A DNA stretch of 64,000 nt from positions 138,225,004 through 138,289,003 of the forward strand of contig NC_055989.1 in NCBI RefSeq assembly GCF_018446385.1, in the 5' to 3' direction. Numbering within the stretch: position 1 is the stretch's first letter; every line of letters begins with the position of its first letter. Made by a program: the position numbers and the translations under genes. Origin of the DNA: Zingiber officinale (taxonomy: Eukaryota > Streptophyta > Magnoliopsida > Zingiberales > Zingiberaceae). This document shows positions 2,510 to 58,250 of this stretch, one piece after another. The notes under the pieces were generated by a model. That model was not told where the DNA came from and searched no databases. It worked only from the letters and a program-made list of their open reading frames with translations.

Positions 2510-4168
2510 ATGCTCTACAACCTGGTGATTGAAATAGATATTCCAGGAATACCAAAGTTTTCTCTCAAAGCAATATTAGATACTGGAGCCACTACATGCT
2601 GCATCGACCAAAAATCAGTACCTACTGAAGCACTAGAGAGGAACACTTTTGTGGTTAATTTCAGTGGTATCAACTCACAACATACCGCCAACATGAAGAT
2701 GAAACAAGCCCGTATGTTTATTGGGAAAAATGTGTTCAAAATACCCTACACCTACAGCTTCCCGATGATATTGGGTGACAATATACAAATGATCATAAGT
2801 TGTAGCTTCATTCGAGCCATGCATGGAGGTCTTCGAATAGAAGGACATGCGGTAACGTTTTATAAAAACCTTACTACTATTAATACGTTACCGTCTGTAT
2901 CAGCTGCAGCCATTGAGGAGCTTGAATTAGAAGAGGAGGAATACATCCAAATAAAGGAGATTGTCAACTACTCAACTGGGCCATCTTATCCAAGGTTTAA
3001 AGAACAGTTTAGCCAACTCCTCAAGGAACTAAAGGATCAGGGATACATTGGTGAAGATCCTCTAAAACACTGGGCAAAGAACCAAATCACCTGCCAGTTG
3101 GATATCAAGAACCCTGATTTTACAATAGAAGATAGACCGCTGAGGCATTTGACTCCACAACAAAAGGAGGCCTTCACAAAACATGTCAAAGCTTTGCTGG
3201 AAATTGGAGTCATCAGGCCAAGTAAGAGTCGCCACAAGACAACCGTTATCATAGTCAACTCAGGAACAACAATAGATCCGAAGACAGGAAAAGAAGTTAA
3301 TGGCAAAGAACGTATGGTCTTTAATTACAAAAGGCTGAATGACCTAACCAACAAAGACCAATACAGTCTTCCCGGCATCAATACCATCCTAAGAAAGGTC
3401 AGCAATAGTAAAATTTATTCTAAGTTTGATTTGAAAAGTGGTTTCCACCAGGTGACCATGCATCCCGACTCAATAGAATGGACGGCTTTCTGGTTCCGGC
3501 TGGTCTCTATGAATGGTTGGTAATGTCATTCGACCTTAAAATACCCCCGCAATATTTCAAAGAAAAATAGACAATTGCTTTAGGGGACAGAGGATTTTAT
3601 AGCCATTTATATTGATGATATATTGGTTTTCTCAACAACTGAAAGCGAACATGCCAAACATTTAAGGAAAATACTGAAAATTTGCAAAAACCATGGACTT
3701 GTACTAAGTCCTACAAAGATGAAGATAGCAGTACAAGAAATTGAATTCTTGGGAGCAATTCTGGGGAACAACAAGATAAAGTTACAACCGCACATTATCT
3801 CCAGGATAGCTGACTTTAAGGAGGAAAATTTGAAGACAACCAAAGGCCTTCGATCCTGGCTAGGTCTTTTAAATTCCGCAAGAAACAACATCCCAAACCT
3901 GGGAAGGCTGTTAAGTCCTCTTTATGGCAAGACTAGTCCTACTGGGGATAAAAGAATGAATCATCAGGATTGGGCCTTGGTCAAACAAATAAAAAAATTA
4001 ATTCAGCAACTCCCAGACCTTGAAGTGGCCCCTGAAGACTGTTATATCATCCTTGAAGTGGATGGTTGCATGGAGGGTTGGGGAGGTATATGCAAATGGC
4101 GAAAAGGCAAAACAGATCCTAGAGGACAAGAAAAAAATTGCGCCTACGCCAGTGGTAGGCTACCAGGA
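2510..4168 (+). pseudogene. Endogenous badnavirus-like protease-reverse transcriptase-RNase H segment (broken)
   Basis: The frame opens with an aspartic protease carrying the DTGA active site (about 2578-2589). It continues through the badnavirus-type RT fingers and palm, then the catalytic YIDD box at about 3608-3619, the RT connection, and the start of RNase H as far as CAYASG near 4150. It has no start of its own, because the upstream movement and coat parts are absent. The frame is interrupted between about 3495 and 3602: a frame change leads to a TAA at 3521-3523, stops follow in the other frames, and the original frame resumes at the YIDD box. The right end is cut by a fold-back element at about 4158. 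It is a crop-virus-family relic that cannot encode a full polyprotein. Confidence 0.9.
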
Positions 4169-4632
4169 TTCATAAACTCTACTACTTAGCCTGGAGGTCT
4201 AGAGTTCGAATCCTGGGGAAGCCAAAAATCCACTGCCAGGGGTGGAAAGTCCTAGTGAGTAACGGCACGGCCAAAGGGTCGTCGGTCGACGACATGAGAG
4301 GTCGCCAAATGGGCCGACGACATAAGGGCCGCCACAAGGGCCGCCCAAGAGGCCAAAGGGTCGGGTCGTTACAATAAAAGGCGCATTTTTATTGTAACGA
4401 CCCGGCCCTCTTGGCCCATTTGGCGGCCCATTTGGCGACCCTCGGGTCGTCGACCGTCGGCCCTTATGTCGTCGGCCCATTTGGCGACCTCTCATGTTGT
4501 CGACCGACGACCCTTGGCCATGCCGTTACTCACTAGGACTTTCCACCCCTGATCAGTGGATTTTTGCCTCCCCCAGAATTTGAACTCTAAACCTCCAGGC
4601 TTAAGTATTAGAGTTTATGAATCCTGGTAACC
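4158..4632. mobile_element. Fold-back (long inverted repeat) element inserted in viral relic
   Basis: Two arms of roughly 220-240 bp are near-perfect reverse complements. The left arm begins gctaccaggattcataaac, and the right arm ends with its complement at about 4632. The centre at about 4380-4390 is an A/T-rich loop between complementary GTAACAATAAAA and TTTTTATTGTAAC. Each arm holds a GAGTTCGAATCC block resembling a tRNA B box and a GC-rich GGGCCGNC repeat. No protein is encoded. The element ends the RNase H reading frame. I did not find a clean target duplication. Confidence 0.7.
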
Positions 4633-19123: not shown

Positions 19124-19640
19124 TTGTTGTAGCAAACACATGTCTGTTATAGTAACTACGGTTTCGTAGCTACTATAACACAGATTTGTCATTATAGCAG
19201 CTACATAACCATTGTTGTTGCAACACGGACTCCATGTGTTCAATCACATTCTAGTATGTATGGTTTCGTAGCTGTTATAACATATACTTGATGTTGTAGC
19301 AGCTACGAAATCATAGCTGCTACAACGTAGACTCCATGTGTTCAATCACATTGTTGCAGCTACCATTCTAAAGCTCCTATAATATATACTTGATGTTGTA
19401 ACAGCTATGAAACCGTAACTGCTACGGCATAGACTCCATGTATTCAATCATGTTGTAGCAGCTACAATTCCATAGCTGCAACAACATAGACTTGACGTTG
19501 TAGTAGCTACAGAACTGTAGCTATTACAATGTAGACTACATGTGTTCAATCACATTGTAGCAGCTACGATTCCATATCTACTACAACACAGATTTTATAT
19601 TGTAGCAGCTACGAAACTGTAGCTATTACAACGTGGCTGT
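19124..19640. repeat. GTAGCAGCTAC palindromic array (left)
   Basis: About ten imperfect copies of a roughly 70 bp unit pair 'TTGTAGCAGCTACGRAACCGTAGCTGCTAC'-like inverted halves with 'ACTCCATGTGTTCAATCACA'-like spacers. Both halves of each palindrome mutate independently. Confidence 0.85.
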
Positions 19641-21465: not shown

Positions 21466-21925
21466 GAACTGTAATTGCTACAATGCGAATTCCATGTGTT
21501 CAATCATACTATAGTAGTTACGATTTTATAGCTACTATAACATAGACTTCATGTGCTCAATCATGTTGTAGCACCTATGGTTCTGTAGATGCTACAATAC
21601 ATACTTGACAACAATGGAATTGTAGTTGCTACAACGTAAACTAGATTTGTTCAATCACGTTGTAGCAATTTTGGTTCCGTAGTTGCTGTAACATATACTT
21701 GATGTTGTAGTAGTTATGGAACTATAGCTGCTATAACACAAACTTAACTTGTTCAATCACATTATAGCAGCTACAATTCCATAGTTGTTATAACATAGAC
21801 ATGACGTTGTAGCAGCTACGTAACCATAACTATTACAACACAGACTTGACTTGACATTGTAGCAGCTACGGTTACGTAGCTACTACAACACGGACTTGTT
21901 CAAGTCTACTATGTAGCAGCCATAG
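21440..21925. repeat. GTAGCAGCTAC palindromic array (right)
   Basis: Same unit as at 19124-19640: pairs of TTGTAGCAGCTAC and GTAGCTGCTACAA with 'tgtgttcaatcac' spacers. It begins inside the end of the starch synthase frame. Confidence 0.85.
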
Positions 21926-26274: not shown

Positions 26275-27627
26275 TGTTGGTGCAATATCCCTTAGGCCAA
26301 GGTTGACCTGGTTGACCAAGCTTGAGTCTTGGTTTGGATTTCGATGTTTGACAATAAGAAATTGATTGCAGAAGAGTCAAGTAGGTCAAGGTTGACTGGA
26401 TACTTGACTGTGAAAGTCCTGGTGAGTGAAGCCAGGCAGAATGAAAGTCCTGGTGAGTGAAGCCAGGCAGAAGGAAAACCCTAGTGAGTGAAGCCAGGTG
26501 AAAGTCCTGGTGAGTGAAGCCAGGCAAGGGAAAATCCAGATGGATCAAGGATGATCAGACATCTGGTGTTGGGAAGTCCAAGTAAGTCAAAGGATTGACT
26601 GGATACTTGGCACGAGGAAATTCAGATGGGTCAAAGGGATTGACCAGACATCTGGTGGAAGTCCAAGTAGGTCAAGGGAGTGACCAGATACTTGGCACAA
26701 AGATAAAAGTCCAAGTGGGTTAAAGGGATTGACCGGACACTTGGTGAGGAGTCCTAGCAGGTCAAGGGAATGACTAGATGCTAGGCATGACGTACCAACA
26801 GGTCAAGGTTGACCGGATGTTGGTTTGGGAGGTTTGGGACTTGGTTTTGGGCAAATACCAAGTGCTGGATCGATCAGTGGATCGATCCAGGCTCTGGATC
26901 GATCCAGACCTTTCCCAGCGAACAGAAAGCCTCTGGATCGATCAGTGGATCGATCCAGATGTCCCAATCGATCAGTGAATCGATTGGGACACTGCTGCTT
27001 CGCGCGATAAGCGCTGGATCGATCCAGGCATTTTTCCAGAGCACAGAGGCGCTCTGGATCGATCCGTGGATCGATCCAAAGCCTCCCCGATTGATTGGGA
27101 ATAATCGAATCGATCAGGATCCGACCGTTGGCGTCGATAAAGGCCGCAGGCGCACGATTCCTTTGGCATCGCTTCGCAGATTCATCTCAGATCTCTCGCC
27201 AGCTTCTCCACAGCACTCACAAAGCTCAGATCGCCAGTTCTTGAAGGATATTGGAAGGTTTCCAAGTCAAGAGGCGGATCAAAGCCAAGAAGAGAAGCTA
27301 GGGTTAGGGTTTGTACTCATTGTAAACTTGTAAGCTTGTATTTCTTGTATCCTTTCCCTCTCTTCTTGTGTTGAGTCTTGTAGGGCTTCTCCGCCCTTGG
27401 TAGTTACCATAAAGGAGAGTTTTACTTAGTGAAGGGTGTGTGTGTTGGTGTGGATCCTTGGATTAGTCACCTCTTGTGAGGTGGATACCAAGTAAACCAA
27501 CCGTGTTAGCGTTGTGTGATTGTTTCTTTGTATTTCCGCTGCACATCTTTGAAGAAACAAGCAACGCCGAGCAACGAGCGAACGCGATGAGCTATTCACC
27601 CCCCTCTAGCTACCTTTGGTCATAACA
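26275..27627 (+). repeat. 5' LTR of the gag-only element
   Basis: Starts TGTTGGTGCAATATCCC and ends TTGGTCATAACA. It contains in order: 'gtgagtgaagccagg' repeats, a series of 'gtccaagtgggtcaaagg' units, the TGGATCGATCCA palindrome array (26865-27115) and a transcript-like tail with ACCCCCCTCTAGC. Frames crossing it are incidental. Confidence 0.9.
26865..27115. repeat. TGGATCGATCAGTGGATCGATCCA array, 5' LTR
   Basis: Inverted pairs of CTGGATCGATC and GATCGATCCAG, some single and some double, in 250 bp. The 3' LTR has extra copies of the same unit, so the array has changed length since insertion. Confidence 0.85.
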
Positions 27628-27629
27628 AG

Positions 27630-27641
27630 TGGTATCAGAGC
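27630..27641 (+). other. Primer-binding site (tRNA-Met type)
   Basis: TGGTATCAGAGC lies 2 bp after the 5' LTR. This is the canonical plant Copia primer site, complementary to the 3' end of initiator tRNA-Met. Confidence 0.9.
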
Positions 27642-27761
27642 GATGCCGCTCTTCACTGGAATCATCGCCGGAAGGGTCAAGCAAAACAAGAAGAGCTAGA
27701 GGGTAAAGAAGTTGAAGCAAAATTGTCAAAGTCAAAGAAATTCAAGAAGCTCAACTTCAAG

Positions 27762-29555
27762 ATGCAATTCCAAGATGGGCTTGGATTTGACACAAGGGTG
27801 GCTCCACCATACACATCGGCAAGCTTCGATTCTTGGAGATCAAGAATCAAAAATTTTCTTATGATGGAGATAGAGCAATGGTTTGCTCTAATGGAAGGCT
27901 TCAAAGCTCCAACAAACTCCAAGGGCAAGCTTCTCAAGAAAAGCAAATGGAGCTCGGAGCAAGTCCAAAGGTGCGAGGCAAATGACAAAGTGACCAAGCT
28001 TTTGGTCAATTTATTGTCAAACACCGTCCTTTGCAAAATTGGAAAATTTGAAGATGCAAAGGAATTATGGAGCAAATTGGCCAAGCTTCATGAAGAGATC
28101 TCATCCACTGTACAAGAGCAAGAAGTATCCAGAGAGGGTGACTCTTTGGAGCAAGACCAAGAGAAGGACTCCAAGGTTGAGAGATGCTCAACCTCCGAAG
28201 AAGAAGTCCAAGAAGAAGCTTCATCCTCAAGGGAATGCATCGAAGGGAACAAGGAGGGAGCATACTCCTTGTTTCATATTCAAGATGATGAAGCCTCCAC
28301 CTCTAGGATTGAGGGGGAGCGATCTTTGGTAACGCCGGATCAAGAAGAAGGAGAAGCCTCTACATCCGGGTCAAGAGACGAAGAGGAGGAAGAAGATTCT
28401 ACCTCCACAAGTCAAGAAAAATCAAATGGAGGGAAATCAAGGTCCGATCAAGAGGAAGCTTCCACCTCCGGATCCAAAGGAAAAGATGCCACCCCTACAA
28501 GAAAAGGTATAAATATTTCAATTAATAATAAAAATCATATTATATGCTTTGAATGTAGGGAACATGGGCACTACAAGAGCAAGTGCCCCAAATTGGCCAA
28601 GAAAAAGGGTCAAATGGCAAAAAAAGGCAAGGAGATGCTCAAGGAGACCATCCCCGGAACAAAGAAGAGCAAGGAGCACATTGTGTGCTTCTTGTGCAAC
28701 CAAAAGGGACATTACCGAAGTCAATGCCCTAAGGGGAAGAAGGTGGTTAAGGCTCATGGAGGAAGCTCAATTCAAGGGGGAGCCTCCAAGGTAAAAAGAA
28801 AGGTAACTTTCATTGAGCCTACCCCTTTAAACTATGGTAAAAAGCATGAAAGTTCTAACTTATATCATTTTAATGCTATTTACCATGAAAATAGGAAGCA
28901 TGATAGCGTTAAGGAAAAACATATAGCTTTTCATGCTAAAACCACTACACCTAGGGCTAGGAATGTGGGTAAAAGTATAGGCAAGAACTCTAAGGATTCT
29001 AGTTACAAGCCTAGAAACAAAAATGCTCATGGATCAAATGGAAAAACAAAAACTAAGGACTTAGTGATGGAAAATCAAGTCTTGAGGTCAAGACTTGACA
29101 AATTAGAAAAGACCCTAAAACGAATGGAAAATATCCTAAAAGGGCAAAACGAGCATAGCCTAGGTCTAGGAGCACAAAAGCCATCCAATGGCCATAGAGG
29201 TTTGAGATACAAACCCAAAGCTAAAAGGGATGTGCCTAGTTATCATAGGGTTCCATATAGCTATGAAACAAACCCTAAGTCTAGAGGTCAAGTCAAAGAT
29301 ACAAGGGAAGATATCCCTAGAAGTATCTTTGCAACAAAAGTGACTAAGACTTCTAAGAAGTCTAAGAAAGTCACTAACAAGATCACAAGGGAGGCTATCC
29401 CTAGAGCTGACCTAGAAAATGTGACCAAGGCTTCTAAGAAGCCCAACAAAGTCACTAGGAAGGTAACTAGGGAAGTTATCCCTAGTGAGTACCTAGAGCA
29501 TCCAAGGAGCACCAATAGGTGTTGGGTTCCTAGGAGCATTTTCTCTACCCCATAA
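27762..29555 (+). CDS. Gag polyprotein of the non-autonomous LTR element (intact)
   Basis: An uninterrupted frame of 597 codons from the first ATG (27762); the frame is open further upstream but without ATG. The N-terminal part (residues about 1-130) is a UBN2/DUF4219-like capsid region with PPYTSASFDSWRSRIKNF and DAKELWSKLAKLHE. A Glu/Ser-rich linker follows. Two CCHC zinc knuckles, CX2CX4HX4C (CFECREHGHYKSKC at about residue 262 and CFLCNQKGHYRSQC at about 307), would bind RNA. A Lys-rich tail follows, with repeated 'VTKTSKKSKKVT' and 'REAIPRADLE'-type blocks of about 35 residues. It ends with TAA and is not fused to pol. Capsid proteins of this type package element RNA in cytoplasmic particles. 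Being intact without pol suggests selection or very recent transposition. Confidence 0.9.
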   Translation: MQFQDGLGFDTRVAPPYTSASFDSWRSRIKNFLMMEIEQWFALMEGFKAPTNSKGKLLKKSKWSSEQVQRCEANDKVTKLLVNLLSNTVLCKIGKFEDAKELWSKLAKLHEEISSTVQEQEVSREGDSLEQDQEKDSKVERCSTSEEEVQEEASSSRECIEGNKEGAYSLFHIQDDEASTSRIEGERSLVTPDQEEGEASTSGSRDEEEEEDSTSTSQEKSNGGKSRSDQEEASTSGSKGKDATPTRKGINISINNKNHIICFECREHGHYKSKCPKLAKKKGQMAKKGKEMLKETIPGTKKSKEHIVCFLCNQKGHYRSQCPKGKKVVKAHGGSSIQGGASKVKRKVTFIEPTPLNYGKKHESSNLYHFNAIYHENRKHDSVKEKHIAFHAKTTTPRARNVGKSIGKNSKDSSYKPRNKNAHGSNGKTKTKDLVMENQVLRSRLDKLEKTLKRMENILKGQNEHSLGLGAQKPSNGHRGLRYKPKAKRDVPSYHRVPYSYETNPKSRGQVKDTREDIPRSIFATKVTKTSKKSKKVTNKITREAIPRADLENVTKASKKPNKVTRKVTREVIPSEYLEHPRSTNRCWVPRSIFSTP

Positions 29556-31930
29556 ATGGGTTAGAGAGTGTCAACTCCGATTAGAAGGGTAGTTAACCCA
29601 ACTTTGAGGAAATTGACACTCAAGGAGCATTTTCAAGGTTTTGTTAACCTTTGAAAATGAAATGAAATTATTATTTACTCCTTGAAAGAGTAAAATGTGC
29701 CTAATGGTGGAAGAATTGATTTTAATCTTAAATGGCACATATTGGGAAATTTATAAGAACTACCAAGTTGGGATTTTGGTATGTTCTTAGGAAATTTAAG
29801 GCGATCCGGGCCTTAATTTAAAGGTGCTACTCTTGTGGAAAAATGAAATATGCCAACATTTGAGGATATGCTTATTTTCAATTGGCATACATTAATTAAG
29901 GGAATTAGAAATGTCAATTTAGGCTTTGGCATTTTCTTGAAGCACTTTAGGGCAATCTAGGTTTAAGTTGTAAGTTTAGCTAAGATTTTAAGGATACTTA
30001 GATAGTTAATCTAGGTATATTTTATTTATGCTAAATCTTGTCATGATTGTTGCCCATCATATGCCATGACATCATGTCTATTTTTGCATTCATGTTTTAT
30101 TATGAAAAATCCAAAAATACCATGTCATGACATTCATACATCATGTAGTTATAGGAATCTTTCTTTTGAAAGTTATTTTATTTTGATGTATGCCATAACA
30201 TTATCATGCATTAGTTTAATTCCTGGTAATTAAGGACAAATGACATTTAACAACACTTATTAACAAGTGACATTCTAGGTGGATGTCTAATATCTCTAAA
30301 GTGCCTAGATAGATATGCATGATCCCTAGTTTAGGGCAAAACCAAAATCTACATCTCACAAAGACTATAAGGTGACTTGTATGTGTTTTAGTGCACATTA
30401 GATACAAGTGAGATGTTAGGATGATGAACAAAGCTCGAGATGTTGATTTAGTGCATTCTTTTGAATTTTTAGGTTCATCAAAACACATAGTTATGTGTTT
30501 TCTCATCATTGGGAAAGCTAATGTACAAGTCATGTGCATTATGCCCAAGGAACATGATGGGATATTGGTTTTGAAAATGTGTTTAAAAATGCTTTTGGAA
30601 AACCATGGTGAAGGCTATCTTTTGATAGTAATCACCATTGAATAGTTAGACACAAACTTGAAGAAAACGCTAAAGTTTTAGTAAATTTTCAAGCTTGTGT
30701 CAATCTTTGAAAAATATGATGTATTCTCATAGAAAACTATTTTTCCATGATTAAGTATGCCCTAAATAATGTCTACACGAAATTTCATGATTTTTGGATT
30801 TTTGTAGAATTTTCTAGGGGTTTCTGAAGTTGACTGAAATGGAATTTCAGCAACTATCAGAGCTCCGATCGATTCATGGATCGATTGGAGTGCCTGAATT
30901 GATCCGTGGATCGATTCAGAAGGCAAGTCTCCCGCAAGCAGAAGCTCGCTGGATCGATCAGCCGATCGATCCAGGTAGTCTGAATCGATCAGTGGATCGA
31001 TTCAAAAAGGTTCAATCGATTGGAACCCAACTCCAATCGATCCAAGTTGTTGATTTTGACTGGGAAGGCCTGATTTCAGCATCTTTGAACCTCTTTGAGT
31101 CTAGGTAACCATTCCAAACCCCTAAAATACATTTGTATACATACAAAGGGTGTTTTCATGTGAAAACAAGGATGGACTGGTTAAGGAAGGCTTCATTGAA
31201 GTTTAGGTTGAGGTTTGTTTCAAATTTTGAGTATTTGAACCTCAAAACTTCAAAATTTAGGTTTCCTAAAGGTTTAGGGATACCAAGTCATTGTTGGTGC
31301 AATGACAGAAGTTACCACGATGTCTTTAGGGGGAGGGACTCTTTGAAGACATGAAAAATTATTTTTCATGAACCTTGGAAGGTGGTTAACCTTCTTTAAA
31401 GAAAATGCTCATGTGTGAGTTGTTGAACTTGAAATGGGGAGTGGATATCCTCATTATTTCAAGAGGGAACTCAAGTGGTTAGAAAATGCTCAAGGTTGAG
31501 TATTTGTCTACATTGAGGAAGGGTTAAGGATAAATGAAGGGTATGAGACCTTCATTTGGGTCATTAGACCATGTCAGTGCTCCAGAGCAAGCATTATTTG
31601 GAAATGAAGGGAATGTGCTCTTCATTATCGTGTTGGTCACAACGAGTGAAGTTGTGAACAACGATGAGCAACTTTTCAGGGGGAGAGTTTTCAACAATGG
31701 GGCATTTGTTGAAGAGTGCCCAAGATTGAGGCACGGGTTGAGGTGTGCTCAAGGATGGGTTGATGTGTGCCAATAGGGGGAGAATGTGTGGTTTAAGTTA
31801 GACCTTCATTACCTATGGGGGATGTCATAGGGGGAGAATGAAGGGAACCGACATTCATACTTTGGCATGAATGGAGTTAAGGCTATTGGATTAGCTTAAC
31901 TCAGAATGGTCCAAACTTAAAGGTATTGTC
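29556..31930 (+). other. Non-coding internal region of the gag-only element
   Basis: No pol motifs on either strand. It contains a GATCGATC palindrome cluster (30860-31040) like that of the LTR. It also has a stretch (31130-31800) with CATTGTTGGTGCAATGACAG and several GGGGGAG blocks that recurs, reversed, at 63420-63980. That recurrence shows the pol-less organisation is shared with a second element. Confidence 0.75.
30860..31040. repeat. GATCGATC palindrome cluster in the internal region
   Basis: Six or so inverted pairs such as TGGATCGATCAGCCGATCGATCCA and CAATCGATTGG outside the LTRs, between gag and the 3' LTR. Confidence 0.8.
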
Positions 31931-31931
31931 A

Positions 31932-31950
31932 AACATCAAAAAGGGGAGAT
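31932..31950 (+). other. Polypurine tract
   Basis: AACATCAAAAAGGGGAGAT lies immediately before the 3' LTR, where plus-strand priming would occur. Confidence 0.85.
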
Positions 31951-33326
31951 TGTTGGTGCAATATCCCTTAGGCCAAGGTTGACCTGGTTGACCAAGCTTG
32001 AGTCTTGGTTTGGATTTCGATGTTTGACAATAAGAAATTGATTGCAGAAGAGTCAAGTAGGTCAAGGTTGACTGGATACTTGACTGTGAAAGTTCTGGTG
32101 AGTGAAGCCAGGCAGAATGAAAGTCCTGGTGAGTGAAGCCAGGCAGAAGGAAAACCCTAGTGAGTGAAGCCAGGTGAAAGTCCTGGTGAGTGAAGCCAGG
32201 CAAGGGAAAATCCAGATGGATCAAGGATGATCAAACATCTGGTGTTGGGAAGTCCAAGTAAGTCAAAGGATTGACTGGATACTTGGCACGAGGAAATTCA
32301 GATGGGTCAAAGGGATTGACCAGACATCTGGTGGAAGTCCAAGTAGGTCAAGGGAGTGACAAGATACTTGGCACGAAGATAAAAGTCCAAGTGGGTCAAA
32401 GGGATTGATCGGACACTTGGTGAGGAGTCCTAGCAGGTCAAGGGAATGACTAGATGCTAGGCATGATGTACTAACAGGTTAAGGTTGACCGGATGTTGGT
32501 TTGGGAGGTTTGGGACTTGGTTTTGGGCAAATACCAAGTGCTGGATCGATCAGTGGATCGATCCAGGCTCTGGATCGATCAGTGGATCGATCCAGACCTT
32601 TCCCAGTGAACAGAAAGCCTCTGGATCGATCAGTGGATCGATCCAGATGTCCCAATCGATCAGTGAATCGATTGGGACGCTGCTGCTTCGCGCGATAAGC
32701 GCTGGATCGATCCGTGGATCGATCCAGGCATTTTTCCAGAGCACAGAGGCGCTCTGGATCGATCCGTGGATCGATCCAAAGCCTCCCCGATCGATTGGGA
32801 ATAATCGAATCGATCAGGATCCGACCGTTGGCGTCGATAAAGGCCGCAGGCGCACGATTCCTTCGGCATCGCTTCGCAGATTCATCTCAGATCTCTCGCC
32901 AGCTTCTCCACAGCACTCACAAAGCTCAGATCGCCAGTTCTTGAAGGATCTTGGAAGGTTTCCAAGTCAAGAGGCGGATCAAAGCCAAGAAGAGAAGCTA
33001 GGGTTAGGGTTTGTACTCATTATAAGCTTGTAAGCTTGTATTTCTTGTATCCTTTCCCTCTCTTCTTGTGTTGAGTCTTGTAGGGCTTCTCCGCCCTTGG
33101 TAGTTACCATAAAGGAGAGTTTTACTTAGTGAAGGGTATGTGTGTTGGTGTGGATCCTTGGATTAGTCACCTCTTGTGAGGTGGATACCAAGTAAACCAA
33201 CCGTGTTAGCGTTGTGTGATTGTTTCTTTGTATTTCCGCTGCACATCTTTGAAGAAACAAGCAACGCCGAGCAACGAGCTATTCCCCCCCCCCCCCCCCC
33301 CCCTCTAGCTACTTTTGGTCATAACA
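31951..33326 (+). repeat. 3' LTR of the gag-only element
   Basis: Same sequence as the 5' LTR with scattered substitutions. It has an additional TGGATCGATC unit near 32570 and another near 32710. A short block before the C-tract is missing, and the C-run has expanded to 20 C (33284-33303) where the 5' LTR has ACCCCCC. Confidence 0.9.
33284..33303 (+). repeat. Poly-C tract near the 3' LTR end
   Basis: Twenty consecutive C in the 3' LTR, against six in the 5' LTR. This is slippage or possibly an assembly error. Confidence 0.9.
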
Positions 33327-35850: not shown

Positions 35851-36752
35851 TATTAGTGCAATTATCTTGAGGAGTCTAGTGCGACCTTGGGTTTTGATGT
35901 TTAGATAAAAGGTTTAAGTTAGGTTTTTATCTTGTGATTTGATATGTGTATTTGAGTGTATAGATCAAATTACAGTAATACACATAAAGCTTGGAGATAT
36001 CATGGTTCTTGGAGAGATCATGACTTAATGAGGCCAAGTAATATAGATGATGACTTGGTTGGCCCAAGGTTGCACACTTAGTGCTTAGAGGTATGTAAAG
36101 ATCAAAGAAGCGTGGTATGAGACATCCATGGAACCATAGAATATGAGCATTGAGATGGTATTGGAGCAGCTGTAAAGCAATGACTTGGCACCACAAAATT
36201 GGAAGCTCAATAGCTCTAGTTTTATAGAGATTGAAGAAGGATGACCAAGCATTTGAGGGATCACAAGACAAGAAGCATAGAGGCAGCGAAGATGATAGTT
36301 GATGGAGGCATACTACATAGGTAAATATATAAAGGATGACATCTGGAGGAGTCAAGTACATGTGTGCATCTGAGGAACTGAGTAACTTGACAAAAGATGG
36401 CTAAGGGGCAAAGTCAAGCTATGATGGTAAGACTCTGTTTGTGAGTTATAAGAGTTGAGTAACCTGTATGCATAGGACAAGGATAGAACTCAATATAGGT
36501 GAATTTGATCATCATGATGATTGTAATTAAGAGTTCAATCAATTGGAATTTGAATTTGATTGTGATGGAATGGAGAAAACCAAATTCCCAAAGTTTTGGA
36601 GTTTCTGGTTTGGATCAATTGATTAGTGGAATAGAGAAACCAAAAACCTTAATGTTTTGGTGTTTGTGATTTGGATCAATCGATTAGTGAGTGATACAAT
36701 TGACTTGTAAATTAATTAATTGTGGCTGAGGAGCTTATGAATGTAATATTCT
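35851..36752 (+). mobile_element. LTR-like block, plus strand, left half (split by CACTA)
   Basis: Begins TATTAGTGCAATTATC, a decayed LTR start, and continues with GTTTTGATGTTTAGATAAAAGG as in the LTRs at 47621 and 55270. It is interrupted after 36752 by the CACTA element and resumes at 40886. Confidence 0.5.
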
Positions 36753-37019
36753 CACTATGTGAAAAATGACTTTTTACTTCGTCACAATTTACTTCGTCAA
36801 TTTAAATATACGAAGTAAAAGTGTATAAGCAACTTCGCTGCAAAAACCGACAAAGTATATACAAATATAGACTTCGCAGATTTAAAAACACGGGCTTCGC
36901 TTTAAACTGAAATAAGTTATTACTTCGGAAATTTGTTAAATACCGAAGTAGTAACGTCGTGAATACATTTTTTAGTGTTTACTCCGAAGTAATAGTACAA
37001 GAGTTAACTTTTATTTTTA

Positions 37020-37348
37020 CAAAGAGACTCTGACCACTTTTATTTCCCCCCACTTCCTTTCGTTTTCTTGGGTTAGGGCTTCTGATGCTCCTCTTCCGAA
37101 ATTGAGTTGTTGGACCTCCTCTTCCTTCCCCTTCTGAGCGGAGAATCGATCCACCTCTTTTTCCTTCTCCTAGGGTTCGTCCATCCGCAGCAGTCTGATC
37201 CTTGCCGAAATCCGCTGCGAAGGGTTAGAAAAGAGGCGATTTCGGGGATCCTGTTTCGCAAGCCGCGCGACCTGAAGGAAGGGTGTCGCCTTGGTCCGGT
37301 TTTGTAACTGTATTTTTGCCTTGCCCCTTCTTTGCAGCGGACGAAGCC
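37020..37348 (+). promoter_or_regulatory. Possible promoter and 5' leader of the chimeric gene
   Basis: GC-richer DNA with CTTGGGTTAGGGCTTC and CTAGGGTTCG leader-like sequence, ending in a good acceptor (CCCCTTCTTTGCAG at about 37323-37336) 12 bp before the ATG. A spliced 5' UTR is plausible. It may come from the donor E3 ligase gene. Confidence 0.35.
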
Positions 37349-40179
37349 ATGGCGAACTCGTGGAGTAGAACGAAGAGAGCCTTCGGGCTTAATCTTTGCG
37401 TTTCTATCCCGCAAACCGCCGATATCGACGACGACGGCCCTCGTATGGCCGAGGCTGTGACCGGCGGCAGGAGGGACTCGACCGACGCCGCCTTCCCTTC
37501 GGATTCTTCGCCAGGAGGCTCGACGGCGACGCAGGAACTACAGCCGCAGATGCCCACAACGCCGAATCCGTCCTCTGGCGGCCTCCGGCTTCATAGATCC
37601 TTAGCAGATCGACGAAGGTGCGTACTTTTATGGTTTCTATTTGTTTATTTGCTTTGTGCTAGTTATTGATTATTCTTCAATTTGGTAATCCGCTTTTTGC
37701 TGAGGTTCTTGCGATTTCAAGAAACTTTGTCATGATAGAGGCATATATTTAGAGACTATAAAATGCTCCCTTTCGATGTGACTTTTATTTGTTTATTGTT
37801 CCATCAAAATAAGCAAACTCGCATTTTCACTCTTACATATTGTTGTCGCTTGTGCTCTTCCCGATAACGTCTTGCGGCCCCTTGATCTTGAGGATCAATA
37901 CAATTTTACTTATTGGAAAAAGGGCGAGGATACTCTATTTTGAAATCAGTCAACAGTCTATCATAGCAAATTAGGCTCCACTGAGTCAACAGTCTGAGAA
38001 ATCAGTCTAATGTTTTTGCTTCAGGTGATTACAATACAAATGGATACTCTATTTTGAACACCTTTGTGCATATGCGCCTTCAATTTGTTGAGAAAAATGT
38101 TGATGCCAAGGTTGTTAGGGCAGTTAAGTGGGTTCAGATTATGGCAGGCTTCTTCAATCATTTTTAGGTCTATTCTTTAATGCAGAAACTCAGTAATGAG
38201 GAGGCAGACTTGGAGCCACTAGATTCACAAGTTATTTCATTGCATTAAATTGATTGTACCTAATGACTATTATCTAAAGATATGTGTACTTAATTTTTTA
38301 TCTCAATTTATCTAAGCAAGTTGAGAAGATTTTTGTCTCTACTAGGTTTTAGGTCATGGTGTATGGTTAGTTTTCTATTTGGCTTTGGGAAGAGGATGTG
38401 GACAAGAGAGCATAAAAGCAATGTCTATCCACCCAATCCCCTAAATCGAGGTTACGAAGCGTTTGACAACACCAATTACAATGGTTTTTTGGATGCAATA
38501 TCATGAAGATAGAATACTTAAATGGATAAAATAACTTGGCATTTAAGTGATTTTCTTTTATGGAGTATCACATTCATACTTCTTAATATTTTTGTTAAAT
38601 TAAAAATTTGAGTTGATGAATGACAATCTTTTTATCCACTAAAGTTTTCTTGAATTATTAATCTTAAAAGATAAAGCTGCTACTAAGCTATTTTTCAGTG
38701 CATATGTTTCTAAATGTGTTGCAGTCTTGCTCGGCAATGTGCTCAACTTTGGTTGAAGACACAGGAAGCTCTTGGGCACCCATTAGGATTTTCCAAGGAA
38801 AATGATCTCTTGTTTCAAAATATTCCAAATTCCCAATTGCAGAAGGTTCATTCCTTTTCAAATTTTAGTCTTATTATGTTGCTTAATGGGCTATAATGGT
38901 CTTAGTTGTTGGTAAGTTATAACACCTAAAGCAACAACTGTTGAATGATTGGTCATTTCCATTAGTTGAAAGATCTGCAGTCCCTAAGGTGTGATGCCAT
39001 AAACTGTCTAGTAAAAATCTCTTCCTTCCATGTAGACATGTTTGAGTAACTGAACTTTTCTCTCCCCTTCCTTCCACCTTGCACTCCTTTCCTACCCTCC
39101 CTTCCCCTTTCCCTTCTTCCTAGTAGACAGAGCTTTAAAGTTTAAACAACTAGACTGGTTTGTCTGTTGAGTCGGAACTCTTTATGTTCCTTTGAATTAA
39201 TTTAGAAGTCTTACACTGTTTGGTCTTTTTTGCTCCAATATTATTCGTGAATTTGTATTAGTGAATTTTTATTGTGTAAAATTAACAAAGGTTCATCATG
39301 TGTAATGTTTTTTTTTGTCCCATTCTATTGCTTTACCTCAAGGTATTGGAACGTCCTGGAGCATTTGTTCTTGAGATTGGCACTGAAGAGATGCCTCCTC
39401 ATGATGTAGTTGAAGCAAGTAACCAGGTATGTTTGACACCGAAAAAAAGTAACTTCCTTATCTGGATAATGTGTTTCTCATAATTTATCCTGTAAAGTGG
39501 GACACAGTTTTGTACTATGTGAATCAAGCATTATATTTTGTTTTAGATATTACTAATTTAAATGATTATTTCAGTGGATAGTTATATCTTAGGGTCTTCC
39601 ATTGGAGAACTGGTGCATTTTTTTTTCTCTTCCATTTTTTTCCTCTTTGCAGCTTAGAAGTCTCACTGTGGAGTACCTGAAAAAAAGAAGACTGAGTTGT
39701 GGAGAAGTTTCATCATATGGTACACCACGCCGACTTGTGGTAAGAACTCGAAGCTCGAAATGATCCTTTCCAATATTTTTTACTATTTGTTGGAAGTGTA
39801 ATTGCATCTTTTTTTTATTAGAACAATGATAGATGCTTTCTCTAACTTTGGTCCTGTTGGTATCTTAAGTTTTGATGATTGGATTTATTTTCTTCTTTGA
39901 TTGAGAAAAGATAACTGATTGTGTCAGTTTAGTCACTCAAAAAGTGATATTGGAACTTTTGATGCGTTTACTGTCTCTTGTAAGATAGCTTAAATTTTTT
40001 ATCTGGTTATCTCTGTTGATGTAATATGTTCTTATAGTAAACTTCAGACTGAAGATGGCCCCTTGGTTCTTTCTAAATTGCAGTTTGCAGGTTGTGTGAA
40101 GAACCAGTACTATACGCAGACACAATATGATGAAGTGAGAATTGAATGGAGTGAATTTGTGTACTCGTATTTGAAGTGA
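37349..40179 (+). CDS. Candidate chimeric five-exon gene inside the CACTA: WAV3-like exon 1 + glycyl-tRNA synthetase exons
   Basis: Exon 1 (37349-37617) starts ATG and reads MANSWSRTKRAFGLNLCVS and later MPTTPNPSSGGLRL. This resembles the N-terminus of WAV3/WAVH-type RING E3 ligases, just before the RING, and stops at a GT donor. Exons 2-4 (38725-38845, 39343-39426, 39653-39739) read ARQCAQLWLKTQEALGHPLG, FVLEIGTEEMPPHDVVEASN and GEVSSYGTPRRLV. This is the part of organellar, bacterial-type GlyRS where the beta-subunit-like half starts. A fifth exon (40084-40179) is unidentified and ends in TGA. All introns are GT-AG, and the phases (2+1, 0, 0, 0) make one open frame of 218 codons. Neither the RING nor the GlyRS catalytic core is included, so the product could not have either parent activity. 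Expression is unproven. Exon 5 is the weakest call; without it exon 4 reads through to a nearby TGA. Confidence 0.5.
38040..38506 (+). other. Unidentified coding-like stretches within intron 1 of the chimeric gene
   Basis: Short frames reading MRLQFVEKNVDAKVVRAVKW (about 38069) and YPPNPLNRGYEAFDNTNY (about 38427) look like decayed exons. I cannot assign them to a family. They might be further captured exons, or exons of the chimeric gene skipped in my model. Confidence 0.3.
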
Positions 40180-40885
40180 ATTGCAGGTTGTGTGAATGAA
40201 TCAGTACATGTTTTTTATTTTTTATGGCTTATTTTGATCATATTTAGGGAGATTTGTTTTGTATAAACATATGCTGAAATCATGGCTTATTTTGATCAAG
40301 GTTTATGAAGTTACCTTTTGTGATGCTCAAAATTACTGAAGTCTAAAAATAATGAAGTAAAAAGAGAAAAAATACTCACTTTATTCATAAAATCCGAAGT
40401 AAAATCTACTTATAACTTCGAAGCAATACAATTTGTTGCTGTAAAATAGTATCAACTACTTCGGTTATTACCAAAAATTTCAAAGTAGTATCTATCTATT
40501 ACTTTGATCCAGAACGAAGCTAAATGTAATTTAATCGATAATTACTTCAGGAATTAACGATATATGACGAAGTAAAAGTAATCCATTACTTCATTTTTAA
40601 CCGAAGTTAAAGTAGGTATATTACTTCACAACAAATACTAAACGATGAAGTCGAAAAGGATTAATTACTTCGGTGTTTTTAAAAACCGACGAAGTTATAT
40701 GCACTTTTTACTTCGTAATATGTCCGAACCCGACACCCAATACGACTTCGTTTTTTCTGGGCCTACGACTTTGGAGTTTATCCGAAGTAAAATGAATCTT
40801 TTTACTACACGCGTGTCTACTTCGGTAAAAACAGGTCTTTTACTTCAGGTAATCAACGAAGTAAAAAGTCATTTTTCACATAGTG

Positions 40886-41487
40886 TCTATTCAATAGATT
40901 AGTTAATTGGATAGTAGACTAATGGTACATTAGTTGATTGATGCTAGGAATTAGTCTTAAAGATGGAAAGAAAAAAAAAGGATGTTGTTACTTGACAATG
41001 GTTAAATTCTCTACATCAGTGGACTCATGGTGAAAACTAGTTGACTTATTGGAAGTAAATTAAATTACATCAATAGGTTTTGAAGGCTATATAAGGACTC
41101 ATTGGAGGCTTCAAGGTTGGCGAAATAGTGTGGTTAAATCTATTAGAAGCCTATTGTAATCTTCTTAGTCTTACTCTTGTACTTCATTGTAATCCTAGAG
41201 TTTGTAAGAGGTTTATCAACCTTTGGTAGTTGATTAAGAACGAGAATGTTAGGTTTTCTTGGAGTGATCTATTAACGAATCATAAGTCGTGGAGTAGTAA
41301 TCCAAGGGATAGCTAAATGTCACATGTGATTGATTGAGTACCTATTGTGTATTAATAATTATTTCATTGCACTAATTTGTTTGAAAACTTGCTAGATTGT
41401 AGCAAGAGTATTATAAATAGTATGTGCATGTATCAGGCACCATTCACCTCCTCTAACATTCGCTACCTCAACTTAACCGCCTCAACA
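40886..41487 (+). mobile_element. LTR-like block, plus strand, right half
   Basis: Continues the LTR interrupted at 36752: a leader-like ATCTATTAGAAGCC..., GTAAGAGGTTTATCAACC, and an end TTCACCTCCTCTAAC resembling the LTR terminus. No intact primer site follows. Confidence 0.45.
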
Positions 41488-53305: not shown

Positions 53306-54409
53306 ACACTTTGTGTGCGACCGTGAACGAAATCTGACATGGCAAAAATCTATTTTTTTTTAATATCTCTCTCATCTGCATGCAACTATAAAATTTTTTA
53401 ATCTCTCTCATCTGATTGCATGCAACAATCACTGTGTTGCTAATTTTTAAAGGTGATGTAGCTGCTACAACGTTGTAGCAGCTACTACACAATAGCTGCT
53501 ACACGTTGTAGCAGCTTCTGTATAGTAGCTGCTATAACGTGTATCAGTGTTATTGTGTAACTACTATGTTGTAGCAGTTACTACACAGTTGTAGCAGTTA
53601 CTGCACAGTTGTAGCAGCTACTGCACCGTTGTAACAGCTTCTGCACCGTTGTAACAGCTTCTGCACCGTTGTAGCAGCTACTGCACCGTTGTAGTAGCTT
53701 CTGCACTGTTGTAGCAACTACTGCACCGTTATAGCAGCTACTGCACCCTGTAGCAGCTACTCCACGGTTGTAGCAACTTCTGCACCGTTATAGTAGCTAC
53801 TGCACCGTTGTAGCAGCTTCTGCACCGTTGTAGCAGCTTCTGCACCATTGTAGCAGCTTCTGCACCATTGTAGCAGCTACTGCATAGTAACTGCTACAAG
53901 TTGTAGCAGCTACTGTTATACCGTTGTAGCAGCTTCTACACCGTTATAGCAGCTACTGCACCGTTATAGTAGTTTCTGCACCGTTGTAGCAGTTTCTGCA
54001 CCGTTGTAGCAGCTTCTGCACCATTGTAGCAGTATTGCACCGTTGTAGTAGCTACTATATAGTAACTGCTACAAGTTGTAGCAGCTACTGCATAATAACT
54101 GCTACATGTTGTAGCAGCTACTGCATAGTAACTTCTATAACGTTGTATCATCACTACCACAATAATTTTTTGCATATAATAATAGGAGAGAGAAGATAAA
54201 ATATTATTTTAATTTAAAAAGAAAGAGAGTAAAGTTGTTGCAAGCAAATGAGAGAAATTAAAAAAAATTTATAGTTGTTACATGCAGATAAGAGAGAAAA
54301 GTTATTGAATGCAAATGAGAGAGATATTAAAAAAATTAGGTTTTGGCCCCGTCAGATAGCCCACGTCGGATTTCGCTCACAATCGCGCACAAAGTGTCGC
54401 TCAACATAT

Positions 54410-57109: not shown

Positions 57110-57841
57110 CTGCTTCCGGAGCATATGGTTCGTCTTCTTCAAGTGCTCCAGCTCTTCCTCCAACCGCCTCACGTACGCCTGAACACAACACGATCAGCCA
57201 CCAAAACCACAAGCTAACTTGTAAGATTTACTCGGCAGACGAAATTATTAGGAAAAAAGACAACTCACTTGCTTTCTCGCCCTGGACCGTGCCGCCGACT
57301 CTCGATTCTTTAGCATCCTCTTCTGCTTCCTCTCGTCCATGCACCGCTTCCCCACAGCCTTTGGCGCCTCGCTGGTGGCGCTCGACTCCATGAAGGAGTG
57401 ATCCATCGCTTGCGGCGCTGCCTGCATAAGAAGCTGCTGGGCCTCGGCCAGCCCCGCCGAATCCAGAAGGCCCGCGCTGAGCATCGCCAAATTGTGCTGC
57501 TGCTGCTGGTTGGCGTGCAATTGGTACTGGAGCCACTGCTCCTGCTGCTGCTGCTGCCTCTGCACCACCTCCACCGGATCCACGCCCAAAAGCTTCGACG
57601 ACGACGCCGCCGGGGCATTAAGGTTGATTCCGCCGGACCGGATCAGGAATTCGTCCAGCGCAGCCGATTCCCCGAATTCATGCACGATCATCTGCTGATC
57701 CGGCAGGTCCGACCATTTTCTCCTGTGCAGCATCGGCTGGCCGCCGGCTGCGCCCATCACCGACGTTAGGAGCTCATCTATGTTCATGTTGTGGTGCTCC
57801 GGCAGCGCTCCTTGGCCTCTGTCGGACGAAACCAACCCCAT
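57110..57841 (-). CDS. Group A (ABF/ABI5-like) bZIP transcription factor gene, 3' end unresolved
   Basis: Exon 1 (57841-57269) begins with ATG, codons MGLVSSDRG. The GTG-initiated extension upstream is preceded by an in-frame stop. It holds MNIDELLTSVM and ALDEFLIRSGGINL, the conserved phosphorylation-type motifs of ABA-responsive bZIPs. A Gln-rich stretch (QRQQQQQEQ) and the basic region KQKRMLKNRESAARSRARKQ (N-x7-R) follow. A GTGAGT donor follows directly. Exon 2 (57178-57110) encodes AYVRRLEEELEHLKKTNHML, the first heptads of the zipper, in phase 0, then a GT donor. No convincing last exon is seen: the remaining 350 bp run through a poly-T tract into LTR-like DNA, so the gene may be truncated. 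Group A bZIPs bind ABRE (ACGTG) promoters in the nucleus. Confidence 0.85.
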
Positions 57842-58250
57842 CCGTCGCCAAAACTCACAAGAATCTGAAACCACTAATCACTCATCATGATCGCACAGCT
57901 ATTGGAATTCTCTCTAAAACAAAATATCAATGATGATAATAATAATAATTAATAATAACAACAACAAAAAAAACAAATATCTCTCTATGTTGCTAAAAGG
58001 AGATCGCACCGGGCGGCGGGGGAATCGGGCGGTGGGCTTTTGCGTGCGGTGCAAAAGTGAACACCTAAATTAAAAGAAAAAAGAACGAAGAAGAAGAAGA
58101 AGAAATTAGAAAATATCGCAACGAACTGCAGATGCAGATTTGTAGAGGAGAGAGGAAAGGAGTCAACGAGTGGGGCGATCATTGTGGTAGCGCGGGCGTT
58201 GCGTTATCGCTCCAACCTTCAACACAAGCTTTTAAACTATATCGTCACCA
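57842..58250 (-). promoter_or_regulatory. Upstream region of the bZIP gene, possible 5' UTR intron
   Basis: On the minus strand a GC-rich leader (58200-58010) contains a donor-like CCCG|GTGCGATC. An acceptor-like GGTTTCAG lies about 20 bp before the ATG, consistent with a spliced 5' UTR. (GAA)n and poly-A tracts are present. No convincing TATA box was fixed. Confidence 0.35.

Follow-up and report, generated by a model that had tools for sequence, protein, structure and literature searches.

We analysed a 64,000-nt window of the genome of cultivated ginger, Zingiber officinale (G000:C4:138225004-138289003), in which a CACTA-type DNA transposon of 4133 bp (positions 36753-40885 of the window) contains fragments of two host genes, a WAV3-type gene and a glycyl-tRNA synthetase (GlyRS) gene, that can be joined in silico into one spliced reading frame of 218 codons. 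The genome searched was a 3.09-Gb assembly of 211 contigs that holds both haplotypes as separate chromosomes; a haplotype-resolved ginger genome is described, in the available part of its report, as assembled from Oxford Nanopore Technologies (ONT) reads (PMC8342452). The element and its flanks comprise the following features:

36750..36752, no strand: left target-site duplication (TSD), TCT; at the empty site on the homologous chromosome TCT occurs once
36753..36782, plus strand: left terminal inverted repeat (TIR), CACTATGTGAAAAATGACTTTTTACTTCGT, with 79 exact matches in the genome
36783..37130, plus strand: 5' subterminal region with ACTTCG/CGAAGT repeats, placed by the motif positions and by the WAV3 capture boundary at about 37131
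37131..37931, plus strand: captured WAV3-type fragment, made up of the leader, exon 1 and the beginning of intron 1; it matches the C18 parent (L049) at 96.9% of 802 aligned positions
37349..37617, plus strand: exon 1 (WAV3-type), 269 nt with a phase 2 end; 270 nt and phase 0 in the parent and in 15/15 other copies
37602..37603, plus strand: site lacking one A in the window copy only (CCTTAG; the others have two A's)
37959..40056, plus strand: captured GlyRS fragment with introns, 98.7-99.0% identical to L033, L034 (C15) and L035 (C16)
38714..40179, plus strand: alternative 144-codon frame with its ATG at 38714, the same exons 2-4 and a last exon that starts at 40048, as in the predicted proteins P0002 and P0003
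38725..38845, plus strand: exon 2 (GlyRS)
39343..39426, plus strand: exon 3 (GlyRS)
39653..39739, plus strand: exon 4 (GlyRS)
40064..40855, plus strand: 3' region of the CACTA element, shared across the wider family; exon 5 lies within it
40084..40179, plus strand: exon 5 with the stop codon, the last exon of a CACTA-borne Ulp1-like gene; tail shared with P0018, P0020 and P0024
40856..40885, minus strand: right TIR, complementary to the left TIR
40886..40888, no strand: right TSD, TCT

Assignment to the CACTA type was based on TIRs that start with CACTA, a 3-bp TSD, subterminal repeats and a relative with transposase domains. The TIR pair is complementary at 30/30 bp, starting CACTATGTG; ACTTCG/CGAAGT motifs occur 20 times within the element's two ends versus 15 times in the rest of the window; and the TSD is perfect in 11/15 bounded copies and imperfect in 4. 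Exactly the same TIRs bound a 17-kb element at C16:100437332-100454304 (L017+L018), which matches Transposase_21 (tnp2-type, E = 3.9e-79) as well as the DUF4218, DUF4216 and Transpos_assoc domains. The window element has no transposase of its own and contains captured host gene DNA, introns included; its 4133 bp are accounted for by termini, WAV3, GlyRS and Ulp1-tail sequence, except for joins of 27 and 7 bp. By this composition it is classified as a non-autonomous Pack-CACTA, an unreported example of an already described class. Among the matches listed in literature searches for CACTA gene capture, Pack-CACTA chimeric transcripts and ginger CACTA or Pack-TYPE elements, no title concerned the window element, and a search for captured glycyl-tRNA synthetase within a chimeric gene gave no match. 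As a separate observation, the 17-kb C16 element has a long open reading frame (ORF; L017 4888-6681, minus strand) resembling a gag-like ORF at window positions 27723-29555.

The coding sequence (CDS) of the window copy is 657 nt long (218 codons and a TGA), with exon entry phases of 0, 2, 0, 0 and 0 and GT-AG boundaries at all 4 introns. TIRs, TSD, five exons, phases, introns, ATG, stop and codon number were all re-derived as the original prediction had given them. Searched against Pfam, the chimera matched PF02092 (E = 1.6e-11), covering only positions 1-52 of 536, and against PDB it matched the glycine--tRNA ligase 7xjy (E = 2.8e-32) over residues 85-194; its GlyRS portion covers residues 309-417 of a 1045-residue GlyRS. 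The Pfam search of the chimera gave no RING or VWA match, both of which are present at the parent locus, and no match to the GlyRS alpha subunit, full alpha and beta domains being absent. A PDB search with exon 1 alone gave no match.

Parent loci of both host fragments were located in the same genome. The exon 1 parent lies at C18:3118039-3118840 (97% identical), and the capture took in 218 bp ahead of its ATG. Locus L049 (C18) encodes MANSWSRAK...SLSRSTK, followed downstream of exon 1 by coding stretches for RING (zf-RING_11, 1.1e-9) and VWA (2.4e-18) domains, a make-up that we take to be that of the WAV3/WAVH proteins. For GlyRS, the 98.7-99.0% identity to L033, L034 and L035 runs over 2.1 kb and through the introns, so it was genomic DNA that was captured, and recently. 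The source region is present at C15:128483078-128485176 and C15:128511189-128513288, about 28 kb apart, and singly at C16:104974963-104977063 (among the best 40 of 760 candidates). These parents bear out the earlier naming of exon 1 as WAV3-type and of exons 2-4 as GlyRS. The fifth exon is not a captured host exon like the others; it is the final exon of an Ulp1-like gene that belongs to the transposon family. Its peptide also follows an Ulp1-like segment in three NCBI proteins, P0018, P0020 (with PF02902 as its precomputed Pfam entry) and P0024. At locus L048 (C18:55297921-55301743), the exon that comes before it, Ulp1-like and with the peptide GCVECGYCVMRYMKEIVECEDLQLERK, lies upstream of the CACTA 3' end; this end, with exon 5, is common to many elements. 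The predicted chimera is built from three sources, one of which is the transposon family itself.

To count copies, the genome was searched with the whole element and the best 40 of 760 candidates were scored, so that copy counts are lower bounds. At least 7 copies are end-to-end, the window copy and one allelic pair included, and the remaining matches are longer, shorter or cut relative to the window element. From the fetched loci 18 copies were assembled, of which 16, including the window copy, have exon 1 and 15 were aligned; C6_66 was compared at exon 1 alone, C21_37 and C11_59 bear another gene in the WAV3 position, and 4 more distant WAV3-type matches (C12, C11, C9 and C10) were kept outside the comparison of the missing A. 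C9_55.4 and C10_52.8 share a TSD and have flanks about 99% identical, and are therefore regarded as alleles. Two forms occur, long copies and copies 671 bp shorter in intron 1, the window copy being of the shorter form. Its nearest relative, C16_44.3, differs at 30/4133 sites (0.73%), and 9 substitutions are private to the window copy. The original prediction had named many disrupted copies elsewhere as one half of what should count against it; exon 1 is borne by at least 16 copies, many of them disrupted.

Comparison of these copies locates the open frame in a single base. In the other copies and the parent, exon 1 ends in phase 0 at the same donor, whereas the GlyRS exon requires phase 2, so the fused frame of the family is broken. 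The phase match in the window copy arises because one A is missing 15 nt before the end of exon 1; the second A is present in the parent locus, in 14/14 other aligned copies and in C6_66 (15/15 others). The family-majority fusion meets a stop in exon 2, and the 218-codon frame was found in 1/15 aligned copies, with no conservation among copies or alleles. Single-base deletions that open the frame number 95/658 in the family-majority CDS, and the missing A is the sole small indel across exons 1-4 of the 15 copies. With a chance of about 1/7 and only one such indel, opening of the frame requires no selection. The earlier argument that a frame open across unrelated genes exceeds chance, and would hardly persist in old non-coding DNA, therefore fails on both points, the phase 2 end being a one-base private difference in a young copy. 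An ancestral in-frame fusion in the long copies was considered and excluded. The first stretch of their extra 671 bp is a piece of the preceding GlyRS exon (DLIVTF...ARMR), fused mid-exon to the WAV3 intron. This piece has no acceptor of its own, so exon 1 would still be spliced to the phase-2 acceptor in the wrong frame.

One-base deletions are a typical error of ONT reads, and repeats are hard to polish. The missing A could thus be an assembly error that leaves the window copy as broken as its relatives, which would strengthen the case against a maintained gene. The published assembly is described as built from ONT reads (PMC8342452, in the part available), and at position 40375 the window copy also lacks one base held by 7/7 other copies compared. 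Against an error, the site is a run of two A's only; and at 38293, where the window copy is 1 base shorter than 6/7 others, it agrees with the GlyRS source L033, so that difference is no sign of error. We regard an assembly error as unlikely, though the least improbable of the alternatives weighed here.

The shorter frame is more widely shared. Two NCBI-predicted 144-residue 'glycine--tRNA ligase 2-like' proteins, P0002 and P0003, equal the frames of C4_39.2 and C4_62.0 and have exactly the shape of a GlyRS-Ulp1-tail protein, for which the WAV3 exon would serve as an untranslated leader. Such a protein might be the family-wide unit, a proposal compatible with any view of the 218-codon frame as accidental, and the frame is open in 8/15 aligned copies, the window copy included. 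It is broken in the other 7/15, by a stop in C8_47.2, C11_132, C5_143, C21_57 and C13_67 and by a deletion in C3_92 and C4_24.6. Distinct changes in exons 2-4 include 2 that make stops against 2.3 expected under neutrality, and a mild synonymous excess in the same exons speaks in favour of the unit. On balance we consider it rather improbable.

A 253-residue WAV3-GlyRS-Ulp1-tail protein, P0001, is also predicted by NCBI, with residues unique to C16_67. Its letters suggest that it spans the 671-bp long-form region through an unusual splice pattern, and it was not accepted as proof of a real transcript. In two further copies, C21_37 (L014, C21:37105874-37110144) and C11_59 (L029, C11:59367969-59372397), an MRL7 first exon replaces WAV3 on the same GlyRS module. 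This exon is 93% identical to ginger P0041 and, because it ends in phase 2, would fit the GlyRS exon unaltered; the start codon is missing in this lineage, a stop interrupts exon 2 of C11_59, and exon 5 is absent from C21_37. This sister lineage displays both a chance phase fit and decay.

Selection was assessed from divergence and from the classes of change, the original prediction having proposed a comparison of substitution rates with the parent genes. Relative to the parents, exon 1 differs by 5.56% and the adjoining intron by 2.21%, with 7 exon 1 differences fixed in the family; changes within copies amount to 2.96% in exon 1 versus 0.91% in the adjoining intron, and to 1.12, 0.16 and 1.15% in GlyRS exons 2, 3 and 4, with 0.59-0.85% in the GlyRS introns. 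Distinct nonsynonymous, synonymous and stop changes (N:S:stop) number 51:31:2 in exon 1 versus a neutral expectation of 54.5:26.7:2.8, and 15:9:2 in exons 2-4 versus 18.5:5.2:2.3 expected (P about 0.04 for the synonymous excess). Purifying selection on codons was thus not detected in exon 1, which is near neutral, and is borderline in exons 2-4. Among exonic substitutions, those private to the window copy comprise 2 nonsynonymous and 0 synonymous changes. A long-maintained selected frame was excluded by the restriction of the frame to one copy and by the near-neutral N:S.

Decay at CG and CHG sites is a mark of transposon-type methylation. C-to-T changes were present in one or more copies at 62/126 founder CG sites, 29/67 CHG sites and 13/198 CHH sites of the WAV3 part, and at 10/32, 40/94 and 44/592, respectively, of the GlyRS part. 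When the window copy was paired with others (five pairs), CHG differences were 1.7- to 5.6-fold those at CHH, and between the parent loci L034 and L035 they were 1.4-fold (CG 3.9-fold). The C-to-T decay at CG and CHG suggests silencing of the copies.

The insertion is hemizygous in the sequenced plant. On the homologous chromosome, C3 159557508-159557549 is an empty site with 1 mismatch in 42 and one TCT; no second match of this kind exists in the genome, and the right flank of the window is colinear at C3:159558046-159560423 (90-92% identity).

We conclude that the window element is very probably a young Pack-CACTA whose 218-codon frame is a recent neutral accident without established function. 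Of the original interpretation, the CACTA element with WAV3-type and GlyRS capture, spliceable in silico to one frame, stands; the maintained new gene does not. A CACTA family with an Ulp1-like gene at its 3' end holds a GlyRS fragment, with a WAV3-type fragment 5' of it. Both capture joins of the window copy lie in introns, and the GT-AG structures therefore survive. The shorter form would have arisen by deletion of the 671 bp and then multiplied, probably mobilised in trans by the transposase of related elements, with copies mostly silenced. In the window copy alone, the one missing A opens the fused frame.

Several observations weigh against this conclusion. Absence from C3 alone gives no date, because the C3 flank differs by 8-10% from C4, and the youth of the copy accordingly rests on sequence (the 30/4133 differences and 9 private substitutions). 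The faster change of exon 1 is partly a matter of base make-up, since exon 1 is richer in GC than the adjoining intron (0.62 and 0.36). The CG/CHG signal is a family sum to which the window copy contributes private C-to-T changes with 4/5 at CG and 0 at CHG, so its own silencing is presumed only, and the parent loci L034 and L035 likewise show raised CG change. The frame of the other copies was judged at the same predicted splice sites. The synonymous excess in exons 2-4 and the near-unchanged exon 3 (0.16%) may reflect weak constraint on the GlyRS part, and the predicted proteins from sister copies, P0001 included, could rest on transcripts.

The opposite reading is a nascent chimeric gene: absence of the base would have created a protein from three sources, which the WAV3 leader taken up with exon 1 would express and which is starting to be kept. 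The window copy retains an intact frame with intact splice sites, ATG and stop, the 218 bp upstream of the ATG came with the capture, and P0001 from the C16_67 copy has a similar make-up. However, the open frame is private to a copy that the homologous chromosome lacks, its private exonic substitutions include no synonymous change, and the product has neither RING nor VWA and only a small GlyRS segment (residues 309-417). The 218-residue protein also had no full-length match in the protein database, the best coverage being 62% (best 40 of 365 candidates; clustering at 90% could mask a near-identical form). We consider a nascent gene very unlikely. Equally slight is the chance of a gene caught at birth, whereby a CACTA backbone with a ready last exon takes 5' host exons (WAV3 or MRL7) before a GlyRS module and one lost base in a hemizygous copy yields a translated three-source protein. 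The probabilities of the alternatives overlap with that of the neutral accident, since two of them, the assembly error and the 144-codon unit, can hold together with it.

Pack-CACTA elements with DNA from several loci that are mistaken for genes have already been described (PMC8903248, in the part available). The Pack-CACTA and Pack-TYPE elements of Arabidopsis and maize treated there involve different species and captured genes, and unlike them, as far as that part extends, one ginger copy has a three-source frame opened by a private missing base, and one backbone occurs with two 5' partners. Soybean Tgm-Express1 (PMC1947982, available part) resembles the ginger element in being a CACTA with multiple fragments of host genes, the splice sites of which allow chimeric ORFs of >100 aa; it lies inside a host gene and its chimeric cDNAs were obtained by reverse transcription PCR, whereas the ginger chimera is known from sequence alone. 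CACTA-ULP elements of grapevine and rice (PMC2528002, available part) carry an Ulp1-like region, as does the ginger family, whereas the window element keeps only the last Ulp1 exon as the chimera's terminal exon.

Other features were noted elsewhere in the window. At 26411-33033, a CCHC gag-like ORF (27723-29555) lies between two near-alike ORFs (26809-27333 and 32485-33033), both of which follow the same 31-bp tandem repeat; the arrangement looks like a long terminal repeat retrotransposon. Aspartyl protease and reverse transcriptase ORFs at 2510-4189 are retroelement- or pararetrovirus-like. The minus-strand ORF 57248-57874 has at its end the first part of a bZIP basic region (bZIP_1, E = 2.2e-5, a match that falls short of the Pfam cut-off) and is possibly a host transcription factor exon. 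Tandem arrays at 53568-54147, 19156-19634 and 21614-21898 have units that share GTAGCAGCTAC-like motifs, with periods of 20, 33, 50 and 102.

Since the parent loci, 15 other exon 1 copies and an empty allele are all present in a single genome, the origin of the element and of its frame is directly readable, and the locus provides a worked example for testing apparent fused genes inside transposons. One GlyRS-Ulp1 Pack-CACTA backbone in ginger has received two different 5' partners, WAV3 and MRL7, and predicted tRNA-ligase-like proteins can stem from Pack-CACTA copies.
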